NCBI RefSeq assembly: GCF_001399755.1
Contig: NZ_LJCP01000003.1
Span: 1 to 45,623 of the forward strand
Length of the DNA stretch: 45,623 nucleotides
Direction of reading: 5' to 3'
Source of the DNA: Thiohalorhabdus denitrificans
GTDB lineage: Bacteria > Pseudomonadota > Gammaproteobacteria > Thiohalorhabdales > Thiohalorhabdaceae
Shown: positions 41,601 through 44,228 of the stretch, one piece after another
Layout of the letters: each line of letters begins with the position of its first letter
Position numbering within the stretch: the first letter of the stretch is position 1
Position numbers and translations under genes: made by a program
Notes under the pieces: generated by a model
What the model was told of the DNA's origin: nothing
Database searches by the model: none
What the model saw: the letters and a program-made list of their open reading frames with translations, nothing else

Positions 41601-42284
41601 ATGCGATTCGCCCCCGGCGTCACCCTAGAACGCCATCCCCGCTGGAACGCCCTGGCCTTCGACCGGCCCTGCCCGGTGCTCTCCTCCGCACCGGTGGGCG
41701 GCGGCGACCGCCTGGTCCGGCGCATCGTCAACCTGTGCGTCCACGGCGACGGCTGCCTCGATGCCTGCGCGGACCCGGAGGCAACCTTCGCGGGATTGGC
41801 GGCCGAGCAGGGCTGGGGCGGGGCACTCACCGGGCTGATGACCGCCGTGTCCGCGCAGGATCTGGGCGTGGGTCACGCCCCGCTGCGGGACCCGCTATGG
41901 TCGGTGCTGGCCACGGCGGGCACCAGCAATGCCCATCGTGCCGGCGAGCCGGCCCCCGTCCACCCGGGCGCGGGCACTATCAACATCATCGCGGTAACCG
42001 GGCAGGGGCTTACCGCCGCCGCACGGGCGGAGGCGCTGGCCCTGGTGGCGGAGGCCAAGGCCGGGCTGCTCGCCGACCTGGGGCGGACCGTGCCGGGCTC
42101 CGGCCGAATCGCCACTGGCACGGGCACGGATGCGGTGGCCATCGCCTCCGAGGGCGGCGCCGATACGCCCTATTCCGGTTACCACACTGAATCGGGACAG
42201 GCCCTGGTGGCGGCGGTCCGGGAGGCCGTCGGCGCCTCCCTGGCACTGAGCGGGGAAAGGGGAGCGGAACCCGAGGAGACCTGA
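41601..42284 (+). CDS. cbiZ: Adenosylcobinamide amidohydrolase CbiZ
   Basis: The 227-residue protein carries the CbiZ pattern: VLSSAPVGGGD (about 26-36), a GGALTGLMTAVSAQDLG block (about 72-88), TAGTSNAHRAGEP (about 102-114), and GTGTDAVAIASEGG followed by the YSGYHTESG end. CbiZ removes the aminopropanol side chain from adenosylcobinamide so that salvaged corrinoids can enter cobalamin synthesis. No other cobalamin gene and no recognisable riboswitch lies in the window, so it acts as a lone salvage gene here. The ATG has no obvious Shine-Dalgarno; GTAGAGCCGCTCC precedes it. Confidence 0.9.
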   Translation: MRFAPGVTLERHPRWNALAFDRPCPVLSSAPVGGGDRLVRRIVNLCVHGDGCLDACADPEATFAGLAAEQGWGGALTGLMTAVSAQDLGVGHAPLRDPLWSVLATAGTSNAHRAGEPAPVHPGAGTINIIAVTGQGLTAAARAEALALVAEAKAGLLADLGRTVPGSGRIATGTGTDAVAIASEGGADTPYSGYHTESGQALVAAVREAVGASLALSGERGAEPEET

Positions 42285-42388
42285 TCAATCCGACCCTCAT
42301 GGGGGCGGGTGCCCTCCTGGGACCGCTTAGGGGGCTTCCGGCTCCTTGGACGGTCACCGAAACGTTCGCTCGGACTCCCAAAACGAAT

Positions 42389-42479
42389 CCGGGATGCGGG
42401 GTAAGCCCGGAGGGCGACTGATGGGATGCCCGAAGGGCAGGGACCCCTTGGGGCCTGGAGGGCTTGCCCCGCATCCCGG
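42389..42479. repeat. Long structured inverted repeat (possible structured RNA or REP-type element)
   Basis: The arm 42389-42408 (CCGGGATGCGGGGTAAGCCC) pairs with 42460-42479 over 20 bp with one G-U-type mismatch. The 51-base middle holds TGCCC-GAA-GGGCA (42427-42439) and a second GGACCC/GGGCCT hairpin (about 42441-42456), so the RNA would form a branched structure. It lies 60 bases before the start of the alpha/beta hydrolase and 104 bases after cbiZ. The text GCCCGGAGGGCGA inside the loop edge is of a kind seen in genomic repeats, so an interspersed element is an alternative to a dedicated regulatory RNA. Confidence 0.5.
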
Positions 42480-42538
42480 GCCCCGTGGGCCCTTCCGGCC
42501 GGATAAAGATGCTTCCTAACGGAGGAGATCGAGGCATC

Positions 42539-43429
42539 ATGCCGTATCTCGCGGGCCTGTTGGCCCTGCTCGGCGGGCTTGGTGGGATCTTCCTGGTGGG
42601 AGTCCACCTCGCCTTCCGCGTCCCACCGCGCCGGGAGACGGGCACCCCGGCTGCTTACGGGCTTTCCTTCCGGGAGGTGCGGATCCCCACGGTCCGGCGG
42701 CGACAACTGTTCGCCTGGTGGCTGCCCGGCCGGGCCTCCGCCCCCACCGTGATCATCCTTCACGGCTGGGGCGCCAACGCCGAGCTCATGCTGCCCCTGG
42801 CGGCGCCCTTCGCGGCGGCGGGCCTCAACGTGCTCCTGCTGGACGCCCGCGGCCACGGCCGTAGCGACCGCGACACCTTCGCCTCCATGCCGCGTTTCGC
42901 CGAGGACGCCGGGGCCGCCGTGGATTGGGTCAAGGCGCAAGAGGGCGGATCGCGAGGCGGAATCGTCCTGGTCGGCCACTCGGTGGGGGCGGGGGCGGTG
43001 CTGCTGGAGGCGGGGCGGCGCCGGGATGTGGGCGCCGTCATCAGCATCGCCGCTTTCGCTCATCCGCGGTGGATGATGAGCCGCTACCTGCGGGGCTTCC
43101 GCCTGCCGGGCGCCGTGGACCGGCTGGTGCAGGCCTACGTCCAGTGGCTTATCGGCCACCGCTTCGCGGACATCGCCCCGCTGCGTACCGTATGCCTGGT
43201 CCACTGCCCGCTGCTGCTGGTGCATGGCGAGGCAGACGCCACCGTACCCATCACCGATGGGGAGCGTCTGGCTTCCGTGTCCGGTGCCAGACTGCTCCGT
43301 ATCCCAGGGGCCGGTCATGGTTCGGTGGAGGAGGTAGAGGGGTACGGCGAGGGGCTGATCTCCTGGCTGCGGGACTCGCTACCTTGTGGGGTTTCTGCCG
43401 ATAAGTGCGGGACGGGAGGTTCCGACTGA
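42539..43429 (+). CDS. Alpha/beta hydrolase with an N-terminal membrane anchor
   Basis: The 296-residue protein has one N-terminal hydrophobic helix (MPYLAGLLALLGGLGGIFLVG) and then an alpha/beta hydrolase fold: ILHGWGANAE (oxyanion), LLDARGHGRSD, LVGHSVGAGA (nucleophile Ser near residue 148), LLLVHGEADATVP (Asp) and IPGAGHGSVEE (His). The helix suggests anchoring to the inner membrane. The substrate is not known; such anchored hydrolases are related to BioH/YqiA-type esterases only loosely. GGAGGAGATCGAGG precedes the ATG. A large structured repeat lies just upstream. Confidence 0.88.
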   Translation: MPYLAGLLALLGGLGGIFLVGVHLAFRVPPRRETGTPAAYGLSFREVRIPTVRRRQLFAWWLPGRASAPTVIILHGWGANAELMLPLAAPFAAAGLNVLLLDARGHGRSDRDTFASMPRFAEDAGAAVDWVKAQEGGSRGGIVLVGHSVGAGAVLLEAGRRRDVGAVISIAAFAHPRWMMSRYLRGFRLPGAVDRLVQAYVQWLIGHRFADIAPLRTVCLVHCPLLLVHGEADATVPITDGERLASVSGARLLRIPGAGHGSVEEVEGYGEGLISWLRDSLPCGVSADKCGTGGSD

Positions 43430-43527
43430 AACAGGTTCTGGTTGCGGAGCCAGCCAAGTAGGGGCTTTCCGGTTTGTCCCCGTTCTGCGCTAGGATGAAC
43501 CCACACCCCCGGGAAACCGGAACATCC

Positions 43528-43857
43528 ATGGTACGTACCATCGCATCTTCCCCAGGCCAGCCTATTCCGGAGCGTGTGCAGGAAGTGGCCCTGCTCGCCG
43601 CCGCCGCGGTGCGCGAAGAGCTGGGCCCCGGGGCCCGTGTGGTGTGGTTCGGGTCCTGGCCAAGGGGCCAGGCCCGGCCGCGTTCGGATCTCGACCTGGG
43701 GGTGGAACGGGATCCTGCCATTTCCCCGGGGGAGCTGGCGAAAGCCAGGGAGCGGCTGGAGGACCTTCCCACCCTTTATTCGGTGGATCTGGTGGACTTG
43801 GGTGAAGCAGGCCCCACCCTGCGGGAAGAGGTCGAACGCGAGGGGATGGCCTTATGA
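43528..43857 (+). CDS. MNT-type nucleotidyltransferase of an MNT-HEPN toxin-antitoxin pair
   Basis: The 109-residue protein has the minimal nucleotidyltransferase motif GSW (residues 42-44) followed by SDLDL (53-57), with a third Asp in VDLVDLGEA. It belongs to the HI0073-like family. In MNT-HEPN pairs the nucleotidyltransferase usually serves as antitoxin, adding AMP to the HEPN partner and blocking it. The 43528 ATG is used for the homologous part; an in-frame ATG at 43495 is also possible. It overlaps the HEPN gene by 4 bases (ATGA). Confidence 0.88.
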   Translation: MVRTIASSPGQPIPERVQEVALLAAAAVREELGPGARVVWFGSWPRGQARPRSDLDLGVERDPAISPGELAKARERLEDLPTLYSVDLVDLGEAGPTLREEVEREGMAL

Positions 43858-44228
43858 CCGCGCGGTGGGAAAGCCTGAACAAGGCAGTGGCCCGTTTCGC
43901 GGAGGCGCTGGATGCTCCGGAAACGGCCATGAACCGTGATGCCACCATCCAGCGCTTCGAGTTCTGCTTCGAATTGGCCTGGAAGGTGATCCAGGAAACG
44001 GCGCGCGGCCAAGGCCTTTCCTGCCAGTCCCCCAAGAGCTGTCTTCGCTTGGCCTTCCAGCAGGGATGGCTGGATGACGAGGAGCGGTGGCTGGCGATGC
44101 TGGAGGATCGGAATCGAACCAGTCATACCTACGACGAGGCCTTCGCTCATCAGCTTTACGGCAGGCTCGGCGCCTACCTCGAGCCTTTGCAGCACCTGAC
44201 CGCCCGGCTTCGGGAGCCGGAGAGCTGA
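43854..44228 (+). CDS. HEPN-type partner (HI0074 family)
   Basis: The 124-residue all-helical protein contains RNRTSH (residues 86-91), which fits the R-x(4-6)-H motif of HEPN ribonucleases, and belongs to the nucleotidyltransferase substrate-binding HI0074 family: the [14 protein letters not shown] block (residues 34-47) is a clear marker. In related pairs (HepT-MntA) the HEPN protein is the toxin and the MNT its antitoxin. Its start overlaps the MNT stop by 4 bases, so translation is coupled. Whether this pair is active cannot be told from sequence. Confidence 0.88.

Follow-up and report, generated by a model that had tools for sequence, protein, structure and literature searches.

A hairpin upstream of an alpha/beta hydrolase gene in Thiohalorhabdus denitrificans belongs to a low-copy family of probably mobile, REPIN- and MITE-like palindromes

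The window analyzed here, a stretch of 45,623 nucleotides from Thiohalorhabdus denitrificans, contains a 91-nt hairpin module between cbiZ and an alpha/beta hydrolase gene, in the same sense as both flanking genes (Table 1). The hydrolase start codon (ATG) at 42539 lies 59 bases past the 3' end of the hairpin and is preceded by GGAGGAG at 42521-42527. A first-pass annotation, made from the letters of the window, had described a 20-bp outer stem with one wobble around 51 bases, about 60 bases upstream of a gene start, and this description was borne out: 20 pairs enclose 51 bases, and the single wobble in the outer stem is a T·G pair.

Table 1. Features of the hairpin locus, in window positions
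Feature	Positions	Strand	Basis or remark
Upstream gene cbiZ (adenosylcobinamide amidohydrolase)	41601..42284	+	PF01955
Left flank, expected place of an element end	42339..42388		No significant inverted repeat with right flank; weak type A likeness not accepted
Hairpin module (core), 91 nt	42389..42479	+	Fold, blastn copies, covariance model R1 101.2 bits on + strand
5' arm of the 20-bp outer stem	42389..42408	+	Sequence varies among copies with compensatory changes
Conserved inner sequence	42409..42459	+	Irregular rod as best RNA fold; invariant columns; 72-92% identity in six copies with different ends
Apical hairpin TGCCC-GAA-GGGCA	42427..42439	+	Pair C-G/U-A/G-C covaries, column 44 with 77 in alignment A4
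3' arm of the 20-bp outer stem	42460..42479	+	Includes T·G wobble 42402/42466
Right flank	42480..42529		No element end accepted
Downstream alpha/beta hydrolase gene	42539..43429	+	PF12146/PF00561

Folded as RNA, the window hairpin reaches -67.8 kcal/mol (z -7.1), a value that none of 200 shuffled sequences equaled or bettered, and its reverse strand reaches -56.5 kcal/mol (z -5.25). The best fold by RNA energies is one unbranched rod capped by the apical hairpin. The element had been called branched, with two further small hairpins in its interior; the best form of this kind that we found gives -62.4 kcal/mol for the whole element, 5.4 kcal/mol worse than the rod by RNA energies. By DNA energies the window copy does adopt the two-hairpin form, at 2% of the ensemble, and the other three of the four copies tested give the rod on the same strand. 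The consensus fold from 15 copies is likewise a rod, and the inner rod pairs 24-71 and 44-52 of this alignment (A2) show two-sided compensatory changes, which are repeated in a 20-copy alignment (A4). The conserved form of the hairpin is the rod; the branched form comes out best by DNA energies only and, of the four copies tested, in the window copy only.

The order to which the window belongs is represented by three genomes only, namely that of the window (G000), a second genome of the same genus (G001) and a third genus member (G002). The module is repeated in two of them. In G000, blastn found five copies, the window's included, at 86-100% identity, and R1, a covariance model derived from 15 copies, returned the same five loci and none further at E ≤ 10 (eight matches, three of them reverse strands). 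G001 holds 15 distinct copies at E ≤ 0.01 (17 R1 matches, two being the reverse strands of counted copies), and blastn adds a half copy at C8:38293 and a degenerate copy of 73% identity at C7:262477, where R1 has no match at E ≤ 1e-5. No copy was found in G002, an assembly that is 82% complete. The copies adjoin unrelated genes, and the other four in G000 lie beside genes other than the hydrolase. Among 369 genomes of the class, with 11 candidates scored per genome, three matched R1 at E ≤ 0.001: G000, G001 and G124. The G124 match (L044, 39 bits), a candidate distant homologue, is a foldback at a contig end and was judged on reading to be an artefact. A gapped-pattern scan of about 85,000 species genomes (genome_contigs) gave no matches; it recovers 14 of the 20 known copies and demands an exact match to the pattern, so that distant copies could escape it, and records near the window's genome were possibly left out of the set. 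Pattern scans of viral_contigs and blastn searches of phage and plasmid sets also returned nothing. Judged by these sequence searches, the family appears to be known so far from this genus alone, and its copy number is low by comparison with that of REP-type repeats.

Base pairing is kept across the copies even where the stem sequence changes. In A4, standard pairs fill 94.6% of the pair cells, and 17 of the 34 pairs show two-sided changes. Two-sided cells number 65; shuffles average 19.5, with none of 500 reaching 65, and slid registers never exceed 12. These counts come from a covariance alignment that is fitted to the structure of the model and therefore leans toward that structure and favors + strand pairs. 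The effect is also visible by eye, since the outer-stem variants CCGGGATGCGGGG, CCGCGAGGCGCGG and CCGAAGGGCGGGG are each complemented on the 3' side. In six representative copies (15 comparisons), the stem arms are 55-100% identical and the inner sequence 72-92%. Pairs are broken in the decayed copies L027-L030. Covariation in a mobile palindrome does not alone prove a functional RNA; published REPINs, as described in PMC3116915, likewise carry compensatory changes.

A structure that matters as double-stranded DNA only, or that is drifting, should show G·T and A·C mismatches equally, because the two mirror each other across strands. Thirteen copies score 92 bits or more, and in the 19 model pairs of their outer stem G·T occurs in 21 cells, spread over 10 columns, and A·C does not occur. 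Because choosing copies by the model favors a G·T excess, we used instead the 14 top copies by strand-neutral blastn, which are those 13 and L006; nine columns then have G·T only, one has both and none has A·C only (sign test 0.004). With all 20 copies the corresponding numbers are seven, four and four, which is not significant (sign test 0.55), and A·C cells are confined to L006 and the six most diverged copies having them. These counts hint that the + strand fold, as RNA or single-stranded DNA, may be maintained in intact copies, the columns not being independent of one another.

The hairpin is usually part of something larger. Recognizable ends of a larger palindromic element were found in 16 of the 20 copies, and they are of three types: nine copies have type A TIRs, three have a second TIR (type B) and four have REPs (type C). 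Type A ends (TGTCCTGTCGCAGAAATTC and variants, mostly after CTAG) are clear at both ends of L002, L006, L007, L008 and L027, weaker at both ends of L005 (shuffle p 0.02) and L024 (p 0.016), and present at the left alone in L003 and L004. Type B ends (CACCAATGGAATT-like) bound L025, L026 and L028. L020, L021 and L022 are head-to-head REP pairs enclosing the core, and L023 is REP-ended by inverted-repeat score only, with a single REP at up to four mismatches. L004 is a chimera, with a type A end at the left and, at the right, a REP resembling those beside a RAYT gene of G000. The four copies without recognizable ends are L010, L029, L030 and the window copy (L001), whose flanks contain no accepted REP or TIR. 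For the window copy, matches to possibly decayed type A ends were considered and not accepted, the best p value being 0.036 at the left and 0.028 at the right with nine comparisons each. With five copies in one genome, 15 in another and REP or TIR ends on most of them, the suggestion that the element might be a repeat of the REP/BIME kind has gained firm ground.

Type C REPs at up to two mismatches number 59 in G001, eight in G000 and none in G002, and a reversed control gave none. A RAYT gene (PF01797, 53 bits) at G001:C4:203641 has the same REPs on both sides; REPs in both orientations were seen around it (G001:C4:202800-204900, L112; also L063), and three of the four REP-ended core copies are located within about 15 kb of it. 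In G000 there are four PF01797 matches, one with two stops, and none of its core copies lies within a pair of REPs. For the TIR types, we found no transposase gene bearing type A or type B ends, and in the three genus genomes no two type A ends, at up to three mismatches, were spaced as in an insertion sequence. The 4-mers flanking the elements are often CTAG and duplication is inconsistent; no exact target duplication with a clean pre-insertion site was recovered for a core copy. Type A ends without the core were also seen in G000. L038 (C8, about 1475-1522) is a bare palindrome with few bases between its two ends, and L040:1501-1764 (G000:C14:226418-226681) is a 264-bp type A element with a different interior and no R1 match, ending five bases from a tRNA-Leu gene (L040:1769-1853); the syntenic G001 site (L022) is without the L040 element.

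With a search pattern of 21 letters, in which one position was free and another allowed two letters, the type A end was found in 28 contigs of GTDB genomes (L115-L142), where about one would be expected by chance, an expectation estimated from equal base frequencies alone and without a control pattern. The 28 contigs represent 15 genomes from at least eight phyla by record titles; carriers named in the titles are Myxococcota, Planctomycetota, Gemmatimonadota, Methylomirabilota, Latescibacterota, Nitrospirae, Acidobacteriaceae and Proteobacteria. An inverted partner (at most six mismatches in 22) lies 30-182 bases away in 18 of the 28 loci, a spacing too short for a transposase gene. TA stands on both sides in 12 of these 18 paired elements, in a comparison where the pattern fixed one A and the 22-mer partner query contains TA. 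The interiors of the paired elements varied (15 pairs compared), and near-identical ends CTAG-TGTCCTGTC-N-CAGAAATTCG were seen around differing interiors, for example in L124:4319-4481 and L129:1472-1523. Myxococcales nzgw251 holds five complete 163-bp elements, four of which differ from each other at one to five positions; the fifth differs at about 59 positions in the same reading direction and is perhaps inverted. Among the 28 loci (up to 8 kb), only L139 has a third type A end, with five mismatches and 2.3 kb off. The L131 interior (29.7 bits, E 0.0027) is a possible further homologue of the core and was left uncounted, since these hairpins score 20-32 bits even with unrelated microRNA models. 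From these matches, type A ends appear widespread, whereas the core does not. A literature search with the type A end sequence gave no repeat paper by title among the matches listed.

At the four sites compared between species (the window, L008, L022 and L002), the relative is without the element. At the window site, G001 has cbiZ, arfB and a methyltransferase gene tightly packed, with neither hydrolase nor hairpin. The G000 block between cbiZ and arfB that is absent there (42285-44228) contains the hydrolase gene, a nucleotidyltransferase gene (Polbeta/NTP_transf_2) and an NTase_sub_bind/HepT-like gene. The latter two form a toxin-antitoxin-like pair, and on reading a similar pair was seen in G002 at C183, apart from the window neighbors. 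Because the whole interval and the neighboring genes differ, the window site does not qualify as a clean empty site. Around L008, the flanks that align are separated by 26 bases in G002 (255 in G001) and by 197 bases in G000 (229 in G001), with no R1 match to the core in either genome. The G000 locus syntenic with L022 is without the core, and a type A element absent from G001 stands about 500 bases from it. In G001, the L002 site has other genes and not the element. The syntenic sites of L022 and L002 thus differ by more than the element. No G000 copy shares both flanks with a G001 copy, the only flank match between core copies being 90 bp.

Gene contexts come from genes predicted by a heuristic caller of our own, based on codon usage and trained on the window. 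Nine of the 20 copies lie between convergent genes, ten between tandem genes (two sense, eight antisense) and one between divergent genes; for comparison, the neighboring pairs formed by the first 31 of the 35 genes predicted in the window comprise eight convergent, 14 tandem and eight divergent ones. At least one gene 3' end adjoins 19 of the 20 copies, against 22 of the 30 window gene pairs. The right-end CTAG of the element supplies the stop codon (TAG) of the neighboring predicted gene at L002:1628-1630 and L008:1628-1630; relatives, on reading, use TGA or TAA as that stop.

Taking these results together, the best explanation is, with high probability, a low-copy family of interspersed palindromes that are mobile in the manner of REPINs or MITEs and have a conserved hairpin as spacer. 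The constant part of the family is the 91-nt hairpin, with the inner ~50 nt kept and the 20-bp stem varying yet paired, usually serving as the internal spacer of a palindromic element of ~150-190 bp bounded by inverted ends. In a plausible model, a transposase would act in trans on these ends, which in four G001 copies are the REPs of a RAYT (the REPIN arrangement) and in others the TIRs of a miniature inverted-repeat element. The element would transpose among intergenic sites, mainly near gene 3' ends, and the long hairpin would bring both ends together, in single-stranded DNA or as a cruciform. RAYT, whose gene lies among its REPs, would presumably move the REP-ended copies, and another transposase the TIR types. 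The window copy would then be a solitary, probably decayed core between cbiZ and a hydrolase gene absent from the locus of the relative; having no detectable ends, it may not be mobile itself. An incidental role of the hairpin at the RNA level, as an attenuator or mRNA-stabilizing hairpin, may exist. The strong conservation of the inner sequence exceeds the needs of a neutral spacer and counts against this explanation. Three accounts of the conservation are live: the hairpin may serve transposition or hitch-hike as a module, it may work for the host at the ends of genes, or template switching may keep it up.

Several other readings have to be weighed against the mobile family. That the hairpin is a cis-acting leader or attenuator dedicated to the hydrolase gene, as the first-pass annotation had considered, agrees with its position close before the start codon, its sense orientation with both flanking genes, the strong fold and the covariation. 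We nevertheless regard it as extremely improbable, since copies stand at other genes, eight of the ten in tandem contexts are antisense to the genes, and the relative keeps the neighbors and lacks hydrolase and hairpin together. Moreover, neither a promoter-like site (sigma-70 consensus only) nor an intrinsic-terminator-like site was found in 42200-42700, and the sole Rfam match there at E ≤ 1 was dauA, at 23.1 bits against a gathering score of 45. It had been stated in advance that many copies in the genome would speak against dedicated regulation and that a single copy with compensatory changes in relatives would speak for a functional RNA. The outcome is mixed: several copies at different loci count against such regulation, yet the covariation is strong. 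The window hairpin probably does not serve the neighboring gene alone as a switch. A stand-alone small RNA gene, also considered earlier, could account for the stable fold and the conserved inner sequence, but the same lack of a promoter-like site, differences of 1 and 3 nt in length within the conserved part, the location of copies in mobile-element spacers and the absence of any Rfam match above the gathering score make it very improbable. Seven other loci searched against Rfam gave sub-threshold matches to microRNA and IRES families only. Protein-coding content was rejected on reading, given the same 1-nt and 3-nt differences, and an integron attC site was considered, from its motif, and set aside.

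The remaining readings accept that the hairpin has been spread and differ in what keeps it. It may have been spread by transposition and then kept for a host function, for example as a bidirectional terminator or a 3' mRNA stabilizer. The frequent adjacency to gene 3' ends and the convergent contexts (nine of 20 copies against eight of 30 window pairs) fit such a function, as do the inner sequence kept between two species and L010, which comes after a stop codon and whose stem is followed, ten bases on, by a run of six T. However, insertion does least harm at gene ends too, stop codons provide TA targets (the stop beside L002 and that beside L008 are supplied by the flanking CTAG), the window copy has no T run after its GC-rich stem as an intrinsic terminator would, and no copy is at the same locus in both species; we consider a host function unlikely. 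Template-switch correction at quasi-palindromes yields two-sided changes without selection, and the hairpin could accordingly be neutral internal DNA of miniature elements whose arms are kept complementary in this way without selection on the fold. The broken pairs of L027-L030 and the non-significant mismatch counts over all 20 copies are consistent with neutral upkeep, whereas the identity of the inner sequence in six copies with different ends and the one-sided counts in the 14 top blastn copies, which point to one structured strand, argue against it, and we hold it to be unlikely, if slightly less so than a host function.

Within the mobile family, a more speculative reading is that the hairpin is a transposon satellite, that is, a structured single-strand module (RNA or single-stranded DNA) under strand-specific selection that passes between unrelated ends and is copied by way of their spacers. 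The chimera L004, the occurrence of one core in three end types and the excess of G·T over A·C in intact copies fit this idea and none proves it, and we think it unlikely to be correct. If it were true, the ends involved would be those of a TIR family found across phyla and of a RAYT/REP system. More generally, if one spacer is shared in this way, the hairpin spacers of REPINs and MITEs would be exchangeable between unrelated transposition systems, which bears on spacer function. What had looked like a riboregulator of one gene is here recognized as part of a mobile repeat family, and the case shows that, where a hairpin is mobile, covariation by itself says little about whether it is a functional RNA. 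No description of this hairpin was found among the papers listed by the literature searches, as judged by title or abstract start.

Known systems share parts of this organization. A REPIN consists of two inverted REPs whose spacer forms a long hairpin with compensatory changes (PMC3116915); REPIN/RAYT features are also described in PMC8266576, and structured or conserved spacers of REP dimers in PMC3733652. The present family resembles REPINs and BIMEs with RAYT (TnpA-REP) in its inverted REPs, hairpin spacer, compensatory changes and RAYT gene among the REPs, and three copies (L020, L021 and L022) have inverted REPs flanking the spacer. In contrast, REP ends occur in only four of the 20 copies besides the one-sided REP of L004, and the window copy has none; furthermore, the ends of REPINs are conserved and the spacer less so, whereas here the spacer is conserved and the ends are of three unrelated kinds. 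As to MITEs, TIRs are lacking in the window copy, while type A ends occur at both sides in seven of the 20 copies (two of them weak) and type B ends in three. The window copy alone therefore falls under neither the REPIN nor the MITE definition, and other copies of the family have ends. RUP of pneumococcus, a 107-bp element with TA targets that is thought to be moved by IS630-Spn1 (PMC2229807), is similarly short and intergenic with inverted ends, and type A ends often lie between TA dinucleotides; however, the hairpin studied here is found with REP ends as well, and no parent insertion sequence was found for type A. RU-3 and the Rickettsia palindromic elements, repeats of ~100 bp with a long stem-loop (PMC2229807), are alike in this form, belong to other lineages and are likened here by description only. 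The unusual part is that one hairpin is common to unrelated transposon ends. TIMEs, mosaic non-autonomous Tn3-derived elements, combine one end class with different cores (PMC4133298) and have Tn3-type ends of 38 bp and duplications of 5-6 bp, whereas in the present family one core is combined with different ends.
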